A program made the position numbers and the translations under genes. From the IMG/VR virus record IMGVR_UViG_3300037153_000943, positions 1-44,617 of that record: a stretch of 44,617 nt of DNA; one strand, 5' to 3'. This document shows positions 14,369 through 29,559 of this stretch, one piece after another. The notes under the pieces were generated by a model, which was not told the DNA's origin, ran no database searches, and saw nothing but the letters and a program-made list of their open reading frames with translations. The first letter of the stretch is position 1. The number at the start of each line of letters is the position of its first letter. The stretch is from a virus.

Positions 14369-15517
14369 CTACACGATCCTGGCGAGCGCCGCCGCCACCG
14401 GCAGTGTTCGCTTGACGCTGTGGGCGTAGCGAGTGGTGACCTGGACGAGGTTCTTGTGGCCGAGGTGCCGGGCGACGTCGGCGAGCGTGAACTCCCCGCT
14501 GTTCAACAGGATCGATCCGTTGGTGTGGCGCAGCTTGTGCGGGGAGACGTGCTCCAGCCCGAGCACCCTGAGTGCCTTGCGCAGGTGGTACGCCAGCCGG
14601 TTGTGGTCGAGCGGTCGGCCGGTGACCGTGAAGCACAGGTTGTTCTCGCGCCAGCCCCGCGGTGACCGTGCCCGGAACCGGCGGGCGTCGAGCTCGTGGC
14701 GCAGCGCGGCGATGAGATCCGGCGTCAGCTCAACGAACCGGTGCGACTGCGGGTTCTTGAGGTCGTCGACCACCTCGAAGCGGCGATGGCCGTCCTCTCC
14801 CACCATCTGCAACTCCCGGCGCACCTCGAGCACGCCGGCGTCGAGGTCGACGGCGTCCCAGCACAGCCCGGCGACCTCGCCCGGCCGCAGACCGGTCAGC
14901 AGACCCGTCAGCAGCGCTAGGTTCACTGGCGTCGGGTTGTCCGTGAGATGCCGGCGGACGAGGTGGAACTCGTCCTCGTAGAGAAAGGTGGCCTCTCTCG
15001 GCGGGCGCACGCCGGCGGGGAAGTCGGCGCCGATGACCGGGTTGACGGTGTTGAACCCGTGCTTCATCCCGTGCTTGAACGCCATGTGGAGATGGGTCCG
15101 GGTCTGCCACAGCTGCGACTGGCCGAGGTCACGCTCGTTGACCATCCACACGTAGAAGTTCTCGACGTCGCCGATCAGCACGGCGCTGGCGACGCGCTGC
15201 GCCAGCGGGTGGGCGGCGACGAGGCCGATGCTGCGGCGGTACGTCTCGCGGGTCTTGGGCTTGCGCTTGGCAGCGTGGAAGGCGTACCAGGCGTCGAGCA
15301 GCTGGGCGACGGTGCGCTCGCCGTTGGGAAGCTCAACCGACCCCTCGATCCGGGCGATGAAGTCGTCGCGCTTGGTCCGGCACTCGGCGACGTTGTCGCC
15401 GCGGACGGTGCGCTGCTTGCCGCCGGCCATGAAGCGCAACGTGACCTGGCGGCGATCGGGGTCCCAGCCGAAGCCCTTGGGCAGTGTGCGGGGCTTCGTG
15501 ACGGGTGGCTTCGGCAT
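14369..15517 (-). CDS. int: Tyrosine integrase
   Basis: In this 382-aa protein, the N-terminal about 60 residues form an arm-binding-like beta domain (GWDPDRRQVTLRFMAGGKQR). The core-binding helical domain is about 65-175 (RTVAQLLDAWYAFHAAKR, TRETYRRSIGLVA). The catalytic domain carries Arg211 (TGLRPGEVAGL), His327-x-x-Arg330 (SPHKLRH), His354 (LGHKN) and the nucleophile Tyr364 (TRYAHS). All residues needed for strand exchange are present, so it should be active. It reads leftward from the attP candidate at 15547-15733, the standard int-attP arrangement of temperate phages. The ATG at 15517 has AGGAG upstream. Confidence 0.95.
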   Translation of the reverse strand: MPKPPVTKPRTLPKGFGWDPDRRQVTLRFMAGGKQRTVRGDNVAECRTKRDDFIARIEGSVELPNGERTVAQLLDAWYAFHAAKRKPKTRETYRRSIGLVAAHPLAQRVASAVLIGDVENFYVWMVNERDLGQSQLWQTRTHLHMAFKHGMKHGFNTVNPVIGADFPAGVRPPREATFLYEDEFHLVRRHLTDNPTPVNLALLTGLLTGLRPGEVAGLCWDAVDLDAGVLEVRRELQMVGEDGHRRFEVVDDLKNPQSHRFVELTPDLIAALRHELDARRFRARSPRGWRENNLCFTVTGRPLDHNRLAYHLRKALRVLGLEHVSPHKLRHTNGSILLNSGEFTLADVARHLGHKNLVQVTTRYAHSVKRTLPVAAALARIV

Positions 15518-17638: not shown

Positions 17639-18598
17639 TCAGCCCGCCGCCTCGAGTCGGTCGAGTCGCCCACCCAGCTCGTCGATCGCCGCGCACAGCA
17701 GCGGCACGAGCTTGGTCAGGTCGCCCTGCTGGAAGACCGGGTTGCCGTCGCCGTCGACGGCGTCGCGCTCTCCGGTGATGGCGTACGGGGCGACGTCCTC
17801 GACGTCGGTGGACGACAGGAAGTCCCACTCGAGTCCGCCGCCGGCGTCCTCGTCGGCCAACCAGCGGCCGCGGTAGGCCCGCTTGCCGAGCTGGCGGACC
17901 CGATGAAGGGCGTCGGTGATCGCCGACACGAACCGCTTGCCACGCGGGTCGCAGGTCTCGTTGTAGGAGACGCTGGAGGCCGAGGCGACGGTGATCGAAC
18001 CGAGTCCGGTGTTGGTGGTGTTGCGGCCGAAACGGATGAACTGCCCGCCGACATCGGCGACGGGGCTGCCCGAGCGGGTCAGGCCGATCGTGTAGGTCGA
18101 CACGGCACCGGCGTTCTGGAAGAACTCGGCCCGGCCGTCATGACCGAGCCAGGCGCCAGGCTTGTTGGCCGCAGCGTCGGGGTTCTGCAGGGCGATCACG
18201 TCTCGCCCGGCGACCACGTCATCGGCGGTGGTCAACCCGGCGCCGCAGCTCACGTTGCCGCCGTCGGCGTTGAGGACGAGGGCCGAGGCGGCGCCGTTGT
18301 TGCGGGCCATGATCTCGTTGGTGTCGAAGGCGACGTTGAGGCCGGTGCTGAGACCCACCTGGAGGCCGTGCCCGTCACCGGTCAGGTCGGCGTCGCCGGT
18401 GCCGGTGACCCGCACCTTCGACGGGTAGCCGCTGAGCCGGGCGGTGAGCGAGGCGAACGTCGACGACGGGTCGCTGCCCAGCTCGTTGACGATGTCGGTG
18501 AGGGCGTTGGCGATGGCGTTGTGGTCGGCGGGATGGTTGCCGGCCTGGGGGGTCTGGTCGGCACGGGTGTTGCTCGGGATCGAGGGTGGATACGTCAT
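17639..18598 (-). CDS. Tail fibre with C-terminal S74-like intramolecular chaperone
   Basis: 319 aa. SD AGGAGG precedes the ATG. The N-terminus (TRADQTPQAGNHPADHNAIA, then a NALTDIVNELG helix) is the usual virion-attachment head of short fibres. The centre (about 60-215) is Gly/Asn/Asp-rich beta sequence typical of a trimeric shaft. The C-terminal about 100 residues (FVSAITDALHRVRQLGKRAY, AITGERDA, LTKLVPLLCAAIDELGGRLD) match the end of S74/endosialidase-type chaperone domains, with the final helix bundle. The usual SDxRLK cleavage signature is replaced by TCDPRGKRFV, so self-cleavage is uncertain. Together with the larger fibre next door it should contact the host surface. Confidence 0.7.
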   Translation of the reverse strand: MTYPPSIPSNTRADQTPQAGNHPADHNAIANALTDIVNELGSDPSSTFASLTARLSGYPSKVRVTGTGDADLTGDGHGLQVGLSTGLNVAFDTNEIMARNNGAASALVLNADGGNVSCGAGLTTADDVVAGRDVIALQNPDAAANKPGAWLGHDGRAEFFQNAGAVSTYTIGLTRSGSPVADVGGQFIRFGRNTTNTGLGSITVASASSVSYNETCDPRGKRFVSAITDALHRVRQLGKRAYRGRWLADEDAGGGLEWDFLSSTDVEDVAPYAITGERDAVDGDGNPVFQQGDLTKLVPLLCAAIDELGGRLDRLEAAG

Positions 18599-18619: not shown

Positions 18620-21600
18620 TTACGGGCTGGTCGGCAGCACGTCGGGCCGCACGACGATCCGCACTGCCCGATCCGACGGCGCGGTGACCGTGCCGTCGAC
18701 GAACTCGGCGACGACCATCAGTTGCAGCACGCCGGGACGCAACCGTTGCGGACCCCAGTCGAACGACACGATGCCCTCGTCGGGGTCGATGATTGCCGCC
18801 GGCAGCGGCAGCCTCGACCGTGGCACCTGCCCGTCGGGGACCGTGACGCGCGGGTCGTCACCGTCCTCGTGGGTGAGGACCAACGTGACCGACGAGGCGT
18901 CGCTGAGGTTGAGGGGGTACCCGACCTCGTCCTCGACCGTCACGGCCAGCAACGGGAGCTGGTCGCCGCTGCGCATCACGATCTCCTGGATTCCGGCGTC
19001 GGCGACACCCGACAACGGGGTGCCTCCGGTGAGGCGGGTCCGTGGCACCGTGTGGGCGTGCACGGTGCTGTCGACGAGGAGGACGAACAGGGTGAGCGTG
19101 ACGTCAGCGGCGGCGTGGGCGTGGGCCGTGTCGGCTACGAGGACGGTGGTCGGCAGTGCAGCGGTCAGCGTGACGTCTTGCGCGCTGTGGGCGTGGACGG
19201 CGCTGTCGACGTCGACGGTGACCCCCGAGATCAGCGTCGGCGAGGACGTCGTGTGACCATGAGACGTGTTGGAAACGACGAGCGTCCGCTCAAGGTTCTC
19301 GACGACGAGCACCATGTCGGTGGTGCCGTCGCTCCGTGACAGGCTCGGATATGTGACGGGCCGGCTGGCTGTCTGTCCTTCGGAGGCGGTGACGGTGGTA
19401 AAGGCGCCGGTCGTCGGGTCGTACCAGCGGATCTTCACGTTGCCAGTGCCGGCGAGCAGGGCGGTGTTGACGGTGACGGTGCGCGACGTCGAGAAGTAGG
19501 CAATCGCCGTGTCAGCATCGGCACCCTGGGCGGCCGTGGAACCGGTCGTACCGGCACCGGTCGTGACGAACGTCGTCGTCGCTTCCCAACCGATGCTGTT
19601 GCACAGATCCCAGATCGGCCATCCGCGCTGGAAGTCCTGGACCATGACGTTGTTCATCGCCGTCGTCCAGGTGTCCCCGGCCGTGAAACCGACCCCGGCG
19701 GCACCGAACGTCCACCAGTCCTCGTGGCCGTTGTTGATCCCCAGCGCCCCCTCGATCGGCAGGGCATAGTGCCGGTAGCGCTTCTCCAGGCGCTCCGGGG
19801 CGGACGAGGCGTGACCGATGTACAGCGGTTCGCAGTCCCACGTCGGTCCGTCGGGTGTGCGCGGATCGCCCTGATACGTGGACCGCCACAGTTGCACCCA
19901 GTCCGACGTGTGACCGCCGTCGTACTGGTACATCGCCTCTTCGGGGTCGAAGTAGGTGAACGCCCCCGGCGGCCACTGGGCCAGGGCGTCGGCACCTTGG
20001 TTGGGCTCACCAATGCACAGGATCGGCCCGTGGACGTCCTCGATGCCACGCACGAACTGGTCGAGTTTGGAGTCGGGACCGGAACTGTCGTCCAGGCCGT
20101 AGTGGAACACCCAGTTCGGCCAGGGGGCGAGGGCGGTCGCCCAGCGCTGGCCCGCGAGACGCATCTCAGCGTCGGACGCCGCCGCCATCGCCGCCTTTGT
20201 GGCGGTCTGCGACCCGCTGCCGGCATAGCAGGACACGCCGACATACATCCCGCGCCGCGTCGCCTCGGTCATCAGGTGTGGGATCTCGACGCTCCACAGC
20301 GTCCCGAGCGTCGAGCGGAAGGCCGTCCCGGACCATGCCGTGTTGCCGGATTCGCTGTTGGTGAACGGTGTCCAACCGGAGCCGATGTTCATCCCGGCCG
20401 AGCAGTCGACGACGAGGCAGTTGAACCCGCGGTCGGCCGCTGAGTTGACAGCGACGGTGATGTTGGCGGTGCTCTTGCGTTGCACCAGACCCCATGACGA
20501 CAGGGCGCGCACCTGGATCGGGACACCGTTCTGGTCGAGCCACTTGCGCAGCGACTTCGTCACCGGAAAGGCGAACGTGTAGGCGACCGTCAGCGCCGGG
20601 CTGGTAGCGATGTGGCCGTGTGTGCAGGCCACGACATTGATCACCCCGGGTAGGAACGTGTCAGGTGCCGAGGCAACATGGCCGTGCGCGCAGGCATCGA
20701 CGGCGAGGGTGACGGTGGGGACGGTGACGGTGGCGTAGTAGGAGACGTACCCCTCGTCGTAGTTGCCGTGGCTCCAAGTGACCGGCAACGGCGGCAGGTT
20801 GGGCGGCGTGAGGTTCGACTGCACGTTGACGCCGGGAGCCCCCTGCCAACGCAGCGCATTGCCACCACCACTCGTCGAGTAGCGGATCGCCACCCCGTAA
20901 CGAGTCCCGGCGGTGAGAGGGATGTTCGTCGCCGCCGTGTACCAGCCGACCGCCGTGCCGATGGAGATCGGGATCACCGATCCGACGCGGTTGGTCGGCA
21001 GCGGTGTCGAGTTGATCTCGTAGATCGCCAACTCGGCGGTGGTGGCGACACCACCGGAGTAGAAGGCGACCTGGGTGACGGCCTCACCGACGTTGGCGAC
21101 ATAGGTGTTGCTGGCAGCGATGTAGCACTCGTCGCTGTAGTTCGAACCGACCGTGTCGGAGTTGATGCCGATCGTGTTGTAGCCGATGATCCCGCCACCA
21201 CTAGGAGGCGGGGCTGACAGCAACGGACTCTCGACGTTGTGGGCATGGGCGCAGACGTCGACAGCGAGGGTGACGTCCCCGCCGGGCAGGGCAACCGAGG
21301 CCGCGCTGTGGGCGTGCGAGCCGGCAGCGACCGTGAGATCGACCGGCACCACGACGTACGCCCCGGCGCGGAAGTTGTCGTAGTAGACATCACCGGTGGA
21401 GCCGGCGAAACAGTTGAGCCCGACGTAGCTGCCGGTCAGCTCGGAGTCGGTGGCGGTGATGTGCAAGATGCCGTCGATGTACAGACGGATCGTGGAACCG
21501 ACAGCTTCCAGGCGCATCCGGGCGGTCGCCCCGCCGCTGCCGTAGGTGACGTTGGCCCGGCCGAGCACGGTGTAGGTCGAGTTGGCGTGGACGATGCCCA

Positions 21601-22552
21601 ACTCGCACTGGCCTGCTCCGGCACCACCGCTGGTGGTGTTGATCCCCGCCTCGTAACTGCTGACGGGGACCACCGTGCCGGGCGTGTTGTTCGCCGCCCG
21701 CAGGTGGAACCACATGTAGTTGCTCACCTTGGCCTTGGGGATGTCGACCTCGATGAAGTGGTCGACACTGGGCATCGGCTGGACCCAGCGGACGTAGTGG
21801 TCGCCGTTGACCTTGGTGGCGGTGTTGCCGGAGATGTACCAAGAGTTGGCCGGGACGTTCCAGTTCGGCCCGAGCGCGTTGGCGGTGCCCGAGGTCGTGT
21901 CCGCTCGGTTGAAGTCGTCGGTGAAGTCGGTGTCGCCACCGGTGAGGGTGACGTTCGGGGCGCTTTGGGCGTGCAGCGTGTTGTCGGGCGCGGCGACGCC
22001 GGGGACGACCAGCGCGGGCTGGCTGGCGGTGTGGGCGTGGGCAGCGGCGTCGACGGCGAGGCTGATCCCCGATGCGGTGACGGTGGCGTAGTAGGAGATG
22101 AGACCGGCTTCGTAGCTGCTGTGCGTCCAGGTGGCCGGCAGAGCAGGCAGGTCGACCCCCGACAGGATCGACAGCGTGTTGGAGCCGGCGGTCTGCCAGC
22201 GCATCGTGTTGCCGCCGAACCCGTTGGTGGCGTAGCGGATCGCCACGCCGTAGCGCGTCCCGGCAGTCAACGGGATCGAGCACGCCGCGGTGTACCACTG
22301 GGCCGTAGCGCCCAGCGGCACCGACACGACCGATCCGACCCGAGCCGCCGGTAGCTGCGCCGAGACGACGTAGATCGCCATCTCGGCGGAGACCCCCGCG
22401 CCGCTGCCGCTGTAGAAGGCGACCTGAGTGACGGTGTCACCGGCCGCGGCGACATAGGTGTAGGCGTCGGCCGTGTAGCACTCGTCCTGCCAGTTGCCAG
22501 CGACCGTGTCGGAGTTGGAAGCGATCGCGTTGTAGCCGATGGTGCCCGGCAC
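18620..22552 (-). CDS. Giant modular tail fibre/spike with glycosidase-like domain and HxH repeats
   Basis: 1310 aa. Two copies of a domain of about 155 residues (about 1-155 and 455-610) share YVA...TVTQVAFYSG, PLTAGTRYGVAIRY and SYYATVTV. A LamG-like beta sandwich lies between (about 205-400). Residues about 660-1000 read as a TIM-barrel glycosidase-like domain (NWVFHYGLDDSSGPDSKLDQ, GPILCIGEPNQG), followed by a collagen-binding-type segment (VKIRWYDPTTGAFTTV, about 1040). The C-terminal 120 residues resemble BppU-type baseplate domains (MRSGDQLPLLAVTVEDEVG). Nine short His-x-His repeats (VDACAHAH type) sit between domains at about 170, 411, 434, 620, 645, 1099, 1120, 1143 and 1166. The GTG start has GGAG upstream. 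Probably receptor binding plus polysaccharide degradation. Confidence 0.75.
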   Translation of the reverse strand: MPGTIGYNAIASNSDTVAGNWQDECYTADAYTYVAAAGDTVTQVAFYSGSGAGVSAEMAIYVVSAQLPAARVGSVVSVPLGATAQWYTAACSIPLTAGTRYGVAIRYATNGFGGNTMRWQTAGSNTLSILSGVDLPALPATWTHSSYEAGLISYYATVTASGISLAVDAAAHAHTASQPALVVPGVAAPDNTLHAQSAPNVTLTGGDTDFTDDFNRADTTSGTANALGPNWNVPANSWYISGNTATKVNGDHYVRWVQPMPSVDHFIEVDIPKAKVSNYMWFHLRAANNTPGTVVPVSSYEAGINTTSGGAGAGQCELGIVHANSTYTVLGRANVTYGSGGATARMRLEAVGSTIRLYIDGILHITATDSELTGSYVGLNCFAGSTGDVYYDNFRAGAYVVVPVDLTVAAGSHAHSAASVALPGGDVTLAVDVCAHAHNVESPLLSAPPPSGGGIIGYNTIGINSDTVGSNYSDECYIAASNTYVANVGEAVTQVAFYSGGVATTAELAIYEINSTPLPTNRVGSVIPISIGTAVGWYTAATNIPLTAGTRYGVAIRYSTSGGGNALRWQGAPGVNVQSNLTPPNLPPLPVTWSHGNYDEGYVSYYATVTVPTVTLAVDACAHGHVASAPDTFLPGVINVVACTHGHIATSPALTVAYTFAFPVTKSLRKWLDQNGVPIQVRALSSWGLVQRKSTANITVAVNSAADRGFNCLVVDCSAGMNIGSGWTPFTNSESGNTAWSGTAFRSTLGTLWSVEIPHLMTEATRRGMYVGVSCYAGSGSQTATKAAMAAASDAEMRLAGQRWATALAPWPNWVFHYGLDDSSGPDSKLDQFVRGIEDVHGPILCIGEPNQGADALAQWPPGAFTYFDPEEAMYQYDGGHTSDWVQLWRSTYQGDPRTPDGPTWDCEPLYIGHASSAPERLEKRYRHYALPIEGALGINNGHEDWWTFGAAGVGFTAGDTWTTAMNNVMVQDFQRGWPIWDLCNSIGWEATTTFVTTGAGTTGSTAAQGADADTAIAYFSTSRTVTVNTALLAGTGNVKIRWYDPTTGAFTTVTASEGQTASRPVTYPSLSRSDGTTDMVLVVENLERTLVVSNTSHGHTTSSPTLISGVTVDVDSAVHAHSAQDVTLTAALPTTVLVADTAHAHAAADVTLTLFVLLVDSTVHAHTVPRTRLTGGTPLSGVADAGIQEIVMRSGDQLPLLAVTVEDEVGYPLNLSDASSVTLVLTHEDGDDPRVTVPDGQVPRSRLPLPAAIIDPDEGIVSFDWGPQRLRPGVLQLMVVAEFVDGTVTAPSDRAVRIVVRPDVLPTSP

Positions 22553-23560: not shown

Positions 23561-26500
23561 TCAGCCCCCGGTAGGCATCTGCTCGAGGAACGGCAGGTTG
23601 AGCGCCCGCGCCAGGGTGGCCAGGCTGCGCTTGCGTGGGTCGAGCTGGTTGCGGATCTGGTAGCCGGTGCCGCTGTAGCGCTGCTCGTTGCCGAGCGCGA
23701 GGTCGCGCAGCGAACGGATCTGTGACGGCCCTTGCTGGGTGAGCTGCCAGAAGATCTCGCCGAGGCCATGACGGGGGTCGGTGATCAGTCGTTGCAGCGG
23801 GGAGGTCATCGCCGGCCGGCCGAACTCGTCGGTGCGGGCGGTGCCGGCGGGGCGGCTGAGCGCACGCATCTGGTACGGGTCGAAGCCGAGTCCGATGGTG
23901 CTGGCCGCCTTGAGCGCCGGTGACATCGCCTGGGGGATGTTCATCGGGTCGAGGGCGAACCCGAGCGGTGAGATGTCGGCGAACGGGGAGATCCCCCCGA
24001 GGTTCAACAGCTTGCCGGCGATCGGGATCCGCCCGCCCATCAGCGCCTGCAACGAGCCCTGCTCGTTGGGGTCGTTGTACATGTCAGCGAGGTGCAGCAG
24101 GAACGCGGCGCGGGTGGGGGACTGGACCGGCAAGCGCAGGGTGGCGCCGATGGAGTGGCGCAGCCACGGGTAGAACGGGAAGATCTGCTTGACGACCTGT
24201 CGTTCGAAGTTGCTCATCCGGCTGTAGTCGCCGAGCGAGCGCAGTGTGGTCTGCAGCGCCTGGTCAGTGGTCTCGCCCTCGGCCAGCTTGGACAGGAGAA
24301 CCGACGAGCGGGTGACGTTGTCGATGAAGTTGTTGATCCGGTAGCCGCGCTGGGCGCCGGCACGGACCGTCTCACCGACCTTGCCGGTGACGGCCGGCTC
24401 GTCGCCCAGCTCGCGGAAGATCTCGAACTCCTCCTGTGACAGCCCGGCGTTGGCGAGCTCCTCGGGGGCCCAGTCGGGCAGTCCTTCCTGGCGCCACAGT
24501 TCCCGCCATCCGCCTGCGGCACCGGCGATCTGTCGTGCCCGACGGGCCAGCTCGAGCGGCCCGACCCCGGCGTGGAACCCGGCTTGCAGGATGTTGCCGA
24601 CCAGGTTGCCGATCTGCCACTTCGGGGAGTACGGCAGCGCCCATGTCTTGAACGCTTTGTTGGTTCGGGTCAGGGCGCGCAGGCCGGGGATGTTGTAGCT
24701 CTCCGGGTTGAGGTTGTCGTAGACCTGTTTGGGCACGACGGTGGACTGCGGGCCGAGTCCGGTGTTGGGGTCGAGGCCGGCGTACCCGGCCTGTTCGACG
24801 TGGCCGCGCAAGGTGTCGGACGGCATGACCTCGCCGTTGTGGTCGGCGGCCCACTGCGCCAGCACCTGCTGCAGTTCGGGGAGCTCGTCGATGCGCTGCC
24901 CGAAGGACTCTTCGATCGCCGCGTTGCGCCGGCCCTCCACCCACTTGCCGGCCTGCTGCGCCTCGAGCCGGGCGTAGGCGTCGAGGGTGAGCGGCCGCAG
25001 CCCGCTGCGGCGGATGTAGTCGCTGCGCAGCGAGGGCTGGGTGAGCCGGTTGTCGGAGCCGAACCCCATTCCGCCGGTGACCGGCTCCCCGCCGATCAGG
25101 TGCTGCGGGTCGAACCCGGCGTCGACGAACTCCGACAGCGTGCTCATCGTGTCCTCGGCCAGTTGCAGGTAGACGTCGCCGGAGCCGGGATGTGCCTTGT
25201 TGGCCTTCTCGGCCATCTCGACGAGAGCGCTGATCTGGCGTTGCGCGGCCTGGGCGGAGGTGCGGAAACGGGCCGGGACCGCGGCGGTCCAGTCGTTGTA
25301 CAACTGGTTCATCGTGTTGGCCCGGCGGGCCTGGTAGCGCTCCATGACCCGGTCGATCTGGGCCTGCGTCTCGGCCGGGATCAGATGGCTGTTCTGGTCG
25401 ATGACGTCACGCACCCGGTACGGGCTGTTGAGCCGACGCCTGGCGTCGACCTCACCCTCGAGGGCGGCGCCCATGTCACCGAGCAGCCGGTCACGGCCAT
25501 GGGCGTTGGCGAGGGTGCGGCGCTCGAGGTCATCGAGGACGATGCCACGGTCACGCAGCTCGATCTGGAACTGCGCCGAGCGCTCGGCCGCCGACAGACC
25601 CATCGGGTCGTCGCCGGCGCCTTCTTTGAGGTATTGGCGCCATTCCTTGGCGAACCCGTGGCGTTTGGCGATGTCCATCTGCACCCGGTCAACGCCGGGA
25701 TGGCTGCGGGCGACGGCACCGTGGAGTGCGTTGACGGTCGGCTCGTTGACGTCTTCGTGGAGACGGTCCTGGAAGCTGCGTGACAGCTCGGTCTCGGCGT
25801 TGGCGATCGTCTCGTTGTGCCGGTCGACGGAGCGCCGCACCCGGTTGGCCCGGGCACGGTCGTTGGCGGCCCGGGCGCGCAGCTCGCCCTGGCGGATCCG
25901 TTCCCGTTCGAACGGAGAGGGCGGCTCGGTCGGCTCGCGCAGCGGGTTGCCCTCCGCGTCGAACTCGCCGGTCAACCGCGAGCCCGGTGTGCGCTCCCAT
26001 CCGGCGCCCCGCAATTGGCGGGCCTCCTTGACGATCTGGTCGATGCGCAGGCCGAGCTCGGCGATCTGCTGCTCGGTGGCCCCGGCGGCGTGGGCCTGTT
26101 CATAGTCGGCGGTGGCCTGTTGCAACTCGTCGGCGAGCTCACCGGCACGCTGGGCGATATGGGCCGGGATGTCACCGGTCGGCGGCGGGATCCGCAGATC
26201 GGCCATCGCGTCGGCCGCCGACGACAGCCGCTCGGAGCGCAACGCCCGGTTCTCGGCTCGCTCCCACACCCGCTGCGCCCGGTTGCGTTTGGCCTCGGCA
26301 GCGGCCCGGAACTCACTGATGCGGGTCGGACGCAGCACGGCGTCGAGCTGTTCAGGGTGCAGACCACGGGCAACGGCACGCTCGGTGCGCTGCCCGACCT
26401 GTGCAAGGACCTCGTCACGGACCTGGTTCATCCGGTCCATCACCTCGGGGGCGAGCTTGCCGTGGCGGTAGTCGATGGCCATGCGCACGTCGGACAGGGT

Positions 26501-27649
26501 CGGGCGCATCGACTCTTCGACCCCGGCGTAGGCGGTGTCGAGGAACTCGCCGAGCTCGTCGGCGTCGAGGCCGTGCAGCCCTGCTCCGAAGTTGGGCAGG
26601 TCGATCGAGGTGAGCACGGCACGGGCTTCGGCCTCGGACAGTCCGAGCTTGCGTCCGAGACTGGCGCCGCGCAGAGCCTGGCGGATCACCCGCACCGAGG
26701 CGCCGTGGGCGACCGCCTTGATCGAGCGCAGCACACCACCCTTCTCGGTCGCCTGGAAGGCGAGATCGGGTGCCACCCGTTCACCGAGCCGGGTCAGATA
26801 GGCCATCGGGTGCTCGAGGCCGGCCGCCTGGCCGAGGCGCATCAGGCCGCGGCCGGCGAGCTGGTAGGGGCGGGCCGGGAGGTTGGCGGCCCGTTCGCCG
26901 AGCGAGGTGACGTCGCGCACGACGTTGCCGACCCGCTGCAGACCCTGGGCGAGCTCGAGGTTGCCGCCGCGGGCGGCGACACCGGCAAGGCCACGGTAGG
27001 CGGCCGGTTGCACGGCGGCCGGTGCGACCGCTTCGCGTGCCCCGGCTTCGGCCAGCTCACGTACCGCTCCTTCGGTGGCGGCCCGGGCAGTGACCTCTCC
27101 GGCTGCCTCCCCGGCGACCGCCCCGCCGGCACCGATCGCCTTGGCTGCGGGACCGCCGATGATCGCCAGGTTGCCGATGTCCTCGAACAACTCGCCGACG
27201 ATGCGGCCCTCGCGGATCGCTTTGAGGTACTCGCCAGGGTGCGTGAACCGATAGCCGGTGTGACCGAACGAGCGGGTCAGCCCAGCGGCGGCGGGCATGT
27301 ACTCGCTGATCGAGCGCAACCCGTGCCCGCCGATGACGTCGGCGCCGACGCGCACGGGGGCGAAGATGTCAGTGCCGATGTCCTTGACGAAGTGGGCCAG
27401 GCCGAGCGGCAGGTTGCGGACGATGTCGCCGAGCTGGCCGAACACCGACTTCGGTTTCGGCGCGGGCCGGGTGATCGGGCGTGGCGCGACCTGCGGGGTG
27501 GTTGCCGCCTCCCGGGCGAGCAGGCTGGCGACCCGACCACCGGGGACGGCCATGCTCCGGGGCAGCGGGCGTGCAGTGGTGTGGATCACCGGTCCACCGG
27601 CCAGCCCGACGAGTTGGCTCGGGCGCAAGGTGCGGACCGGCGCTGCCAT
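23561..27649 (-). CDS. Large internal virion (ejection) protein, 1362 aa
   Basis: Long, Ala/Arg/Glu-rich, largely helical protein with coiled-coil stretches (about 380-640: ELADELQQATADYEQAHAAG, GELRARAANDRARANRVRRS) and a Gly/Ala-rich possibly membrane-inserting segment near 165-190 (IGGPAAKAIGAGGAVAGEAA). The C-terminal region (about 1040-1240, including KWQIGNLVGNILQAGF and KQIFPFYPWLRHSIGATLRL) is more hydrophobic and ordered. Its size and position after the transglycosylase and another Ala-rich protein match the T7-type ejected core proteins (gp14-gp16). Function as an ejection/channel protein is inferred from position and composition; no enzymatic motif is seen. The ATG at 27649 overlaps the previous stop; a longer in-frame GTG/ATG is not preferred. 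Confidence 0.65.
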   Translation of the reverse strand: MAAPVRTLRPSQLVGLAGGPVIHTTARPLPRSMAVPGGRVASLLAREAATTPQVAPRPITRPAPKPKSVFGQLGDIVRNLPLGLAHFVKDIGTDIFAPVRVGADVIGGHGLRSISEYMPAAAGLTRSFGHTGYRFTHPGEYLKAIREGRIVGELFEDIGNLAIIGGPAAKAIGAGGAVAGEAAGEVTARAATEGAVRELAEAGAREAVAPAAVQPAAYRGLAGVAARGGNLELAQGLQRVGNVVRDVTSLGERAANLPARPYQLAGRGLMRLGQAAGLEHPMAYLTRLGERVAPDLAFQATEKGGVLRSIKAVAHGASVRVIRQALRGASLGRKLGLSEAEARAVLTSIDLPNFGAGLHGLDADELGEFLDTAYAGVEESMRPTLSDVRMAIDYRHGKLAPEVMDRMNQVRDEVLAQVGQRTERAVARGLHPEQLDAVLRPTRISEFRAAAEAKRNRAQRVWERAENRALRSERLSSAADAMADLRIPPPTGDIPAHIAQRAGELADELQQATADYEQAHAAGATEQQIAELGLRIDQIVKEARQLRGAGWERTPGSRLTGEFDAEGNPLREPTEPPSPFERERIRQGELRARAANDRARANRVRRSVDRHNETIANAETELSRSFQDRLHEDVNEPTVNALHGAVARSHPGVDRVQMDIAKRHGFAKEWRQYLKEGAGDDPMGLSAAERSAQFQIELRDRGIVLDDLERRTLANAHGRDRLLGDMGAALEGEVDARRRLNSPYRVRDVIDQNSHLIPAETQAQIDRVMERYQARRANTMNQLYNDWTAAVPARFRTSAQAAQRQISALVEMAEKANKAHPGSGDVYLQLAEDTMSTLSEFVDAGFDPQHLIGGEPVTGGMGFGSDNRLTQPSLRSDYIRRSGLRPLTLDAYARLEAQQAGKWVEGRRNAAIEESFGQRIDELPELQQVLAQWAADHNGEVMPSDTLRGHVEQAGYAGLDPNTGLGPQSTVVPKQVYDNLNPESYNIPGLRALTRTNKAFKTWALPYSPKWQIGNLVGNILQAGFHAGVGPLELARRARQIAGAAGGWRELWRQEGLPDWAPEELANAGLSQEEFEIFRELGDEPAVTGKVGETVRAGAQRGYRINNFIDNVTRSSVLLSKLAEGETTDQALQTTLRSLGDYSRMSNFERQVVKQIFPFYPWLRHSIGATLRLPVQSPTRAAFLLHLADMYNDPNEQGSLQALMGGRIPIAGKLLNLGGISPFADISPLGFALDPMNIPQAMSPALKAASTIGLGFDPYQMRALSRPAGTARTDEFGRPAMTSPLQRLITDPRHGLGEIFWQLTQQGPSQIRSLRDLALGNEQRYSGTGYQIRNQLDPRKRSLATLARALNLPFLEQMPTGG

Positions 27650-29559
27650 CAGAAGCCGACGCTCCACAGGGCGATCTCGGCCAGTCTGGCGCTGACACCG
27701 GCCGTGCGCAGCTTGCGCAGCAGCCGCTCATGGGTCGGCTGCTCGTTGTCCTTCCAGTTGTCGAGCATGTCCTGGATCTGGGACTGGGCCTGCTCGAAGT
27801 CCGGTTTGGTCTCGGGCTGGGTGACGATCTCGAGGATGTCGAGCGGGTCGCCGAGCTTGTCGGGCGGTTCGGTGCCGTACCGGGAGGCGAGCTCGTCACG
27901 CGCCGCGGCCTCGTCGGCCTTGGAGGCGGTGGTCTTTCCCTTGGTGATCCCGGCCTGGTTGCGGACGGCGGCGGCGTACTCCTGCTCGCTGGTCGGCTGG
28001 CCGGACGCCTTGGCGAGGTAGTTGTAGACCGACGGCACCTCGTTGGGCATGGCGTTGGCGAGCTCGGCCGGGTCGATGTCGTAGCCCTGGTCGACGAGTC
28101 GCCGACCGGCCTCCTGCAGCGCGGCGCGCACGACATCGGAGGAGTACCTCGAGCCGACTCCGCCACCGGTGAGGACCGGTTCCCCCGCCGCGGTCTGGGT
28201 GGCCATCTTCTCGATGTCACGCGTCGGGTCGCCCATCACGATGCTGGAGAACCCGCTCGGGGAGATCATCGTGCCCTGCTGCAGGGCGCCCTGGACGACG
28301 TTGCGCGTGAACGGGTCGAGCCCCTGGACCTGCCCGGGGGTGAGCAGGATCCGGTTGCCGGTCGCTGGGTCAACGGTGGCGTACTGGTTGGCGGCCTGGC
28401 GGATCCCGGCGAGTCCAGTGGCCAGGGTGCGTGCCAGGATCGCCTGGTTCTGTGCGGGCAGGCGGGACGCCTGGGCCTGCAGCGCCGAGATCGCCGCGTT
28501 GGCTGCGGCGTAGCGGTTCGGATTGAGGTTGATCAGCGATGCCGACGGCGACTGCATCCCGGGCATCTGCGACGGTTGCAGCACCCACGGCGGCAGGTCG
28601 CCTCCGGCCGGCAATTGGTCGGAGTAGATCGGGACCCCAGAGTGGGTGTAGCCGACGACGTCGCCTGGCTGGGATCCGGGGGGTGCAGTTCGTCGGGGCG
28701 GCTGGTAGCCGGTCGAACCGACGACCGGTGGGCCACCGCCCATCGCTGCGATCGTCGACGGCGGGAGCTCGGCCAGCGACCGTTGACGGGCACGGTCCTC
28801 GGCGACGGCCTTGGCGGTGTAGGCAGCGGCCTGCATCCTCCAGAAGGCGTCACCGGCCACCTTGCGTTGGGCTGCCGATGCGGCCTTGGTGACGCGACGG
28901 CCGATCTGGCCGGCGTTCTGACGCAACGCCGCCAGGTTGGCGCCGATCAGATTGCTGACGTCGCCGGTGGCGCCGAGGATGTCACGGGCCTCGTTGCCGA
29001 GCATCGCCGAGAGCTCACCTTGGGACAGTTGCGAGTCCTGGGCGCTGGCCGCAGCGGCGTCCTGGGCGGCTTTGATGGCTGCGGCCTGGGCGGTGGCGTC
29101 CATCCGTGCCCGGGTCAGGTCGGTGTTGGCCTCGATCTCGGCGACCGACTGCTGGCCGCGGATCTGCTCCTGGCGCACGTTGTACTCGCCTTGGGCGCGG
29201 ATCGGGGCAACGGCCATCTCGACCTGCTGGGGGATGTACGAGCGGGTGGCCAGGACCGCCTGGTTGTAGTCGGCCATCCGCCGGTCACGGGCCGCCATCG
29301 ACGCCTGGTAAGCGGACGACGCCTGGCTCATCCCGGCGATCGCCTGGTCGTAGGGGCCGGTGATCGTCGAGGCGATCGAGCCGACCGCGCCGGTCGGGGC
29401 GCCGCGCAGCGCGGCTTCCTGCATCGCCTGTTGCACTGCGGTCTTGCGCTGGTTCTGTAGTTCGGCCTGGGCCGCCTTGTAGGCGTCGACGCCGGCCTGG
29501 CCGGCTTTGGCCTGGGCAGCGAGCAGGGCCGCGTTGGCGGCCGGGATCGGATCAGCCAC
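27649..29559 (-). CDS. Ala/Gln-rich internal virion protein, 636 aa
   Basis: The first 290 residues are Ala/Gln-rich helix (AALLAAQAKAGQAGVDAYKA, QAAAIKAAQDAAAASAQDSQ), consistent with a long helical core. A Pro/Gly-rich stretch (about 290-345) contains VGYTHSGVPIYSD, and a second helical half follows. The C-terminus (PTHERLLRKLRTAGVSARLA) is basic. The GTG at 29559 has a purine-rich SD (GGGGGAG). It sits between the transglycosylase and the 1362-aa protein; the three are probably released together to form a conduit during DNA entry, as in T7. Exact role not demonstrable here. Confidence 0.6.
   Translation of the reverse strand: MADPIPAANAALLAAQAKAGQAGVDAYKAAQAELQNQRKTAVQQAMQEAALRGAPTGAVGSIASTITGPYDQAIAGMSQASSAYQASMAARDRRMADYNQAVLATRSYIPQQVEMAVAPIRAQGEYNVRQEQIRGQQSVAEIEANTDLTRARMDATAQAAAIKAAQDAAAASAQDSQLSQGELSAMLGNEARDILGATGDVSNLIGANLAALRQNAGQIGRRVTKAASAAQRKVAGDAFWRMQAAAYTAKAVAEDRARQRSLAELPPSTIAAMGGGPPVVGSTGYQPPRRTAPPGSQPGDVVGYTHSGVPIYSDQLPAGGDLPPWVLQPSQMPGMQSPSASLINLNPNRYAAANAAISALQAQASRLPAQNQAILARTLATGLAGIRQAANQYATVDPATGNRILLTPGQVQGLDPFTRNVVQGALQQGTMISPSGFSSIVMGDPTRDIEKMATQTAAGEPVLTGGGVGSRYSSDVVRAALQEAGRRLVDQGYDIDPAELANAMPNEVPSVYNYLAKASGQPTSEQEYAAAVRNQAGITKGKTTASKADEAAARDELASRYGTEPPDKLGDPLDILEIVTQPETKPDFEQAQSQIQDMLDNWKDNEQPTHERLLRKLRTAGVSARLAEIALWSVGF

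Follow-up and report, generated by a model that had tools for sequence, protein, structure and literature searches.

The closest described counterparts of the element reported here are the metal-binding HxH pairs of fibre and spike proteins. In R-type pyocin fibres, T4 gp37 and P2 gpV, three chains together give six-histidine iron sites, and the crystal of the T4 short tail fibre contained zinc, its natural metal being unclear (both according to the passages on such sites in PMC6116203). HxH metal sites have been proposed, in the sections concerned, for Alteromonas phage V22 (PMC10579305) and Shigella phage Sf14 (PMC11821841), and the fibre of Alteromonas phage R22Y was modelled as a trimer with iron docked at each HxH, as part of PMC11705849 describes. 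Here we report that a viral DNA of 44,617 nt (IMG/VR record IMGVR_UViG_3300037153_000943, positions 1 to 44,617; hereafter the window, meaning this whole stretch) encodes, on the minus strand from 22552 down to 18620, a fibre-like protein of 1310 aa in which HxH pairs are the core of a 22-residue repeat, and that related repeats form tandem arrays of up to 32 units elsewhere. By analogy with the described sites, we propose that a tailed phage carries this protein on its virion as a fibre or spike-like adhesin and that the HxH units would serve as metal staples in a homotrimer, a reading to which we give a probability of about 45 %. The likeness to T4 gp37, the pyocin fibres and P2 gpV lies in the occurrence of the HxH motif in a fibre or spike, the window protein being fibre-like; the relevant passages of PMC6116203 do not present their sites as parts of a regular array with a 22-residue repeat.

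The ORF begins at a GTG codon, with GGAG 7 bases 5′ of it as read by eye, and its coordinates include the stop codon. HxH pairs start at residues 172, 413, 436, 623, 645, 1098, 1120, 1144 and 1165, with a degenerate HAQ at 194. An earlier reading of the letters alone, without database searches (the sequence-only reading), had pointed to all ten within 3 residues of these positions, and the count of nine pairs exceeds that in every one of 50,000 shuffles of the protein (mean 0.86, maximum 7). More than half of the histidines (18 of 34) belong to the pairs, which are HAH in six cases and HGH in three. The sequence-only reading had spoken of a VDxxxHAH-type unit; the HxH is there in nine copies, but VDxxxH is literally present in five of the nine and HAH in six, and an alignment of the nine leaves only V, H and H as invariant columns. 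The 22-residue unit can be written approximately as LxVxDAxHAHTADNxxLTQ, and the spacings within its groups are 22, 23, 22, 22, 24 and 21 residues.

The units were also scored with a matrix of 22 positions that had been trained on 643 units from outside the window and was used with a threshold of 12 bits. All lie on the minus strand. The first two (H172, HAH, 22001..22066; H194, HAQ, 21935..22000) score 25.4 and 12.5 bits, the next two (H413, HAH, 21278..21343; H436, HAH, 21209..21274) 17.9 and 20.5 bits, and the third group (H623, HGH, 20648..20713; H645, HGH, 20582..20647) 11.3 and 16.1 bits. In the last group, H1098 (HGH, 19223..19288), H1120 (HAH, 19157..19222) and H1144 (HAH, 19085..19150) reach 24.1, 19.1 and 15.2 bits, and H1165 (HAH, 19022..19084), placed by its sequence and by alignment with relatives, is missed. 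Eight of the ten units thus pass the threshold, and nine, with H623 just below it, exceed 6.6 bits, the best score over 42,028 shuffled positions. A chance origin of the pairs is ruled out by the protein shuffles and by this comparison of the matrix with shuffled positions. A three-unit hidden Markov model (HMM) trained without the window loci likewise found the four window-derived loci at E values of 3e-14 to 3e-21. Pfam, PHROGs and the PDB did not recognise the window repeat, and no description of a repeat of this kind was found in the open-licence literature, which covers only part of what is published. As a separate observation, a cysteine stands two residues before the first histidine (CxHxH) in three of the ten window units (H436, H623 and H645) compared with 27 of 612 elsewhere; in such units the cysteine and the two histidines would share one face of a strand.

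The sequence-only reading proposed a search for the HAH unit in other fibres, and profile and pattern searches did find it, in 81 non-redundant ORFs or ORF fragments. A permissive DNA pattern with two HAH gave at least 120 stretches, mostly chance matches, but true tandem arrays were present in at least three contigs besides the window loci; tighter patterns seeded on HAH gave partly overlapping sets of 50 and 62 stretches. From 230 loci, window-derived ones included, 91 ORFs held at least two regular-expression units 19–27 residues apart; an HMM search then yielded 102 ORFs, and removal of redundant and window-derived loci left the 81, which do not stand for 81 independent genomes, since the set includes fragments and ORFs that adjoin each other on a single contig. 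One comes from a bacterial metagenome-assembled genome (MAG; L125), one from an isolate phage (L133) and the rest from IMG/VR contigs. Neighbouring units are spaced by exactly 22 residues in 710 of 805 cases, the next most frequent spacing being 24 (39 cases).

Across the 643 units the first histidine is the most conserved position (99 %), followed by leucine at −7 (91 %), the second histidine (87 %, with glutamine in about 9 %) and leucine at +9 (86 %), figures that are inflated because 534 of the units were found through their HxH. Among the 109 in-register units found without it, at least 101 keep the first histidine and 60 are HxQ, the commonest variant in the relatives. Glutamine also occupies the second position in mid-array, in 46 of 426 middle units (chains of at least four, first histidine required). 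Because glutamine recurs there, the HAQ at residue 194 can be regarded as a normal variant. Little variety is seen in the residue that separates the two histidines; the search pattern itself accounts for part of this, and the feature was not used. A third histidine lies nine residues before the HxH in 43 % of the 643 units, often after LTQ, and in none of the ten window units.

The arrays differ in size and placement. When weak neighbouring units are included, there are 98 clusters of 1–32 units in the 81 ORFs; five clusters are single units, 12 of the ORFs have more than one cluster, and 12 clusters have at least 80 aa on either side (for example, in L163, L202 and L155). In many relatives the units form a single array close to the C-terminus, and these cluster counts make the window plan, with short groups between domains, a minority one. 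The unit had been called a linker by the sequence-only reading, which suits its recurrence at every domain junction of the window protein; the term is too weak for a repeat that reaches 32 copies, and because of these arrays we regard the HxH unit as a stalk-building repeat. In five of 80 ORFs (L170, L158, L172, L171 and L133) a second short repeat, RT(F/L)xV...RT(F/L)xV, ends the protein after the array and is possibly a docking tail.

In the window protein a beta domain is followed by two units, a LamG-like part, two units, a second copy of the beta domain, two units, apiosidase-like and Collagen_bind_2 domains, four units and a C-terminal domain, so that one group (2+2+2+4) stands at every domain junction. 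On the trimer model, the sugar-binding beta domains and the apiosidase-like domain would hang on a stalk of 22-residue beta repeats with one HxH each. The protein would be a homotrimer in which the LxV, HxH and VxL strands of each unit wrap around the three-fold axis; six histidines from three chains would then lie in one layer around a single metal ion, for which Fe(II) is the likeliest candidate, and each histidine layer would be flanked on both sides by hydrophobic ones. Behind each globular domain a group of units (two, two, two and four) would bring the three chains together again and lock them, and this re-locking would let domains be added or duplicated without loss of the stalk. The parity of the conserved positions (L−7/V−5, H0/H2 and position 7/L9) means that three short strands per unit fit the repeat, an arrangement that suits a six-histidine trimer layer and a single-chain His/Gln ladder equally. 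We favour the trimer staple because the groups between domains are short and because HxH sites of this kind have been published; judged on the sequence layout, short groups flanked by domains would suit a staple between three chains better than a free-standing single-chain helix. The conservation of the histidines and flanking leucines, the strict 22-residue period, the similarity to the HxH fibre of R22Y and the structural genes around the window gene and around other arrays also speak for it. The sequence-only reading was right that HxH sites in trimeric phage fibres and spikes bind iron, but its example, the T4 short tail fibre, needs correction, the crystal containing zinc (as given in part of PMC6116203).

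Among repeats that already have a name, the Pfam family PTR (PF12789, phage tail repeat like; curated cut-off 27 bits) comes nearest, and part of PMC12220804 places PTR domains beside S74 chaperones and collagen repeats in polinton-like viruses. What the PTR proteins R22Y gp12 and V19 gp4 have in common with the window is HxH pairs at a 22-residue period in phage fibre proteins: four of the six pairs of R22Y are spaced 22, 22 and 22, as are the four pairs of V19. The HAH repeat could then be a divergent PTR branch working exactly like PTR repeats, and our result a mere extension of that family. The spacing of 22 in R22Y, V19 and another PTR record (L089) argues for this, as do a PTR score of 54.1 bits, twice the cut-off, for one HAH array (L166) and a match of the HAH profile to R22Y (E 5.8e-4); for comparison, PTR scores R22Y at 71.6, V19 at 56.7, L089 at 101.8 and L069 at 134.7 bits. 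However, the rest of the unit differs, GLQxALDxKA in PTR versus LTQxHxLxVxDA in HAH, and by eye GLQTALDGKA, the latter half of the PTR unit, has a helical look and LTQxHxLxV, its counterpart in the HAH unit, a beta one. PTR gave no match to the window, over 16 records it matched four at E≤0.01 with one above the cut-off, and among 68 array proteins it matched one at E≤1e-3. Conversely, the HAH profile missed the PTR records V19, L089 and L069. A direct comparison of the two profiles scored 21.7, a value reached by 16 of 150 column permutations of HAH that preserved the HxH and by 4 of 150 full permutations. Because permuted profiles reach the real score, we rate a common origin of the two repeats as possible and go no further; that HAH is simply a PTR branch is the least probable of the readings considered here.

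Alongside the missed PTR records and the permutation scores, several results weigh against the trimer, and some of them fit another architecture, a right-handed parallel beta-helix made by a single chain, in which each repeat forms one coil, the histidines and glutamines stack as a polar ladder without metal, and the arrays are rigid spacer rods. Stacked polar ladders have an analogue in the Asn ladders of pectate lyases. For seven units of one array (L164; 41 in-register rows, single chain), AlphaFold2 returned a beta-helix with three strands per 22-residue coil (pLDDT 64.8, pTM 0.53), which VIA aligned with the Bacillus pectate lyase 1ee6 (Z 14.6, 2.8 Å, 148 of 154 residues). NosD, a beta-helix family, matches eight of 41 arrays weakly at E≤10 (best 2e-4) and three of 68 whole proteins at E≤1e-3 (best 3.1e-7). 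Glutamine at the second histidine, in about 9 % of units, would not readily be allowed by an obligatory six-histidine site and is accepted by a ladder; the rarity of single units, 5 of 98 clusters, also suits a helix. The tolerance of glutamine, the AlphaFold2 model and the weak NosD matches are the reasons for favouring a single chain. No known trimerization chaperone is among the 19 Pfam families of the 68 array proteins (E≤1e-3), and a search of the PDB with the three-unit profile (hmmsearch, E≤10) returned an alkaline phosphatase chain alone (E 0.053) and no HxH fibre. The window's own array (residues 1088–1190; 38 rows, single chain) was modelled by AlphaFold2 with a pLDDT of 53.8 and a pTM of 0.38.

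The helix has difficulties of its own. AlphaFold2 turns perfect random repeats into confident but unrealistic beta-solenoids, natural families with well-diverged repeats faring better, as part of PMC11795689 reports. The confidence of the array model is modest, its five versions spreading from pLDDT 42 to 65, and Foldseek found nothing for it in the PDB at E≤0.001; a viral Foldseek match (E 4.8e-4, TM 0.19) was dismissed as meaningless. The VIA matches to beta-helix enzymes are best taken as a property of the model and no proof of the fold. The NosD matches, which recur in the arrays of L168, L180 and L128, are a lead to the fold that is independent of AlphaFold2. A pair of coils between domains, such as the window protein has, would make a poor helix by itself, and we consider the single-chain helix a possible but doubtful explanation. 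Alternatively, the units could be ordinary, mostly flexible or locally beta linkers kept by recombination, whose histidines might bind metals at the surface or sugars of the host and have no structural role; their place at domain junctions and the low AlphaFold2 confidence for the window's own array would agree with this. A first histidine in 99 % of 643 units and a fixed period of 22 residues would be unexpected in a loose linker, making this explanation unlikely.

If the trimer staple also holds for the relatives, this unnamed phage repeat family would consist of metal-ladder stalks with one HxH metal layer per unit, which in pairs would act as a reusable interdomain clamp, a generalization that we regard as about as doubtful as the helix. 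Were it true, at least 20 buried iron ions would be possible in one long-array fibre. Metal-bound arrays of 10–32 units would be far denser than the six or seven sites named in the relevant passages of the literature. Two roles have been discussed for iron in phage fibres, that of a structural staple and, in the ocean, that of a way for phages to exploit iron uptake (in part of PMC11705849), and with dense arrays a single purified protein would suffice to test the iron-fibre idea directly. Pfam and PHROGs hardly register the repeat, which makes it difficult to identify a gene with such units as fibre-like; a profile of the 22-residue repeat would flag genes of this kind.

The globular parts of the window protein are all encoded on the minus strand. 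The duplicated beta domains recognized by the sequence-only reading are real: copy 1 (residues 1–162, 22067..22552) and copy 2 (residues 453–613, 20714..21196) have 61 % of residues in common when residues 1–170 are compared with 455–629, and their DNA is 71 % identical over 532 aligned columns. Copy 2 has a Pfam Lectin_like match at residues 474–563 that is under the cut-off (E 4.9e-4). A duplicated domain accompanied by its two units fits easy domain shuffling, as far as the sequence can suggest it. The glycosidase-like barrel corresponds to an apiosidase/DUF4038-like glycoside hydrolase domain (residues 673–973, 19634..20536), which matches Pfam Apiosidase (PF13204) at E 2.8e-5 but, with 24.3 bits, stays below the cut-off of 26.5; the domain after it (residues 1006–1085, 19298..19537) passes that of Collagen_bind_2 (PF12904; 34.3 bits, cut-off 22). 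Apiosidase followed by Collagen_bind_2 is a usual domain pair. The hydrolase-like part has one PDB match, the DUF4038 protein 4qfu (E 0.016–0.023), in whose alignment GGD pairs with GLD and DEPIYE with CEPLYI, positions that may hold the catalytic acid residues. The window protein shares the domain pair with Apiosidase/DUF4038 proteins, but here the domain sits between HxH groups of a phage protein and its Apiosidase score is under the cut-off. The LamG-like part (residues 207–403, 21344..21934), delimited by eye, had no Pfam match and a phmmer match to a single other ORF (L022, E 3.5e-8). The C-terminal domain (residues 1186–1310, 18623..18997) looks Ig-like by eye and had no Pfam match. Neither 50,697 phage records nor viral contigs, scanned by pattern for the complete protein or the hydrolase region, yielded relatives of the whole protein, and a scan with the duplicated domain gave 21 pattern matches, none of them confirmed.

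A variety of domains accompanies the repeat elsewhere. Of the 19 Pfam families in the 68 array proteins (the window's included), NosD occurs in three proteins, Laminin_G_3 in two and the other 17 in one each, among them Gp80 podophage fibre, polysaccharide deacetylase, zinc carboxypeptidase, CBM96, Apiosidase and PTR. PHROGs assigned array proteins to head, minor head, minor tail and virion structural families, with one member each. Near the arrays of four other records, seven of ten ORFs tested have matches among families of portal, terminase, head, head-protease or tail-spike proteins, the other three having no match. The repeat is rare in both phage records and species genomes, and for this reason appears to reside mainly in viral contigs. 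Among the 50,697 phage records (three queries, E limits of 1e-2 and 1e-3) the only array is that of Microcystis phage Mae-JY22 protein XAI95683, annotated as hypothetical, which has one array near its C-terminus in contrast to the groups between domains of the window protein; the four window units as a query retrieved no phage record at E≤0.1. A single-query scan of 84,980 species genomes, which detects close relatives only, confirmed one locus, in an Alphaproteobacteria MAG, and within the phylum of that MAG two of 398 genomes match at E≤1e-8, the MAG itself being one.

The window encodes a terminase, portal, major head protein, DNA polymerase, primase, exonuclease and integrase, and the 1310-aa ORF stands within a run of structural genes, from which position we infer that its product is a virion component. 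Just downstream, the C-terminal part of an ORF at 17639–18598 (minus strand) matches tail fibre families (phrog_18345, E 7e-16); it looks like an S74-type chaperone by eye and had no Pfam match. Two large ORFs of the structural region (1368 and 636 aa, 23561–29559, minus strand), without a PHROG match at E≤1, perhaps encode internal virion proteins. The terminase matches 1814 phage records from many hosts. The head protein matches 13, of which eight are Arthrobacter, two Microbacterium and one Cellulosimicrobium phages, with 31–35 % identity in the 12 matches listed of the 13, and an actinobacterial host seems likely on this sequence similarity. An integrase (14369–15517, minus strand; phrog_1, E 4e-49) lies near the fibre genes, and the phage is therefore probably temperate.

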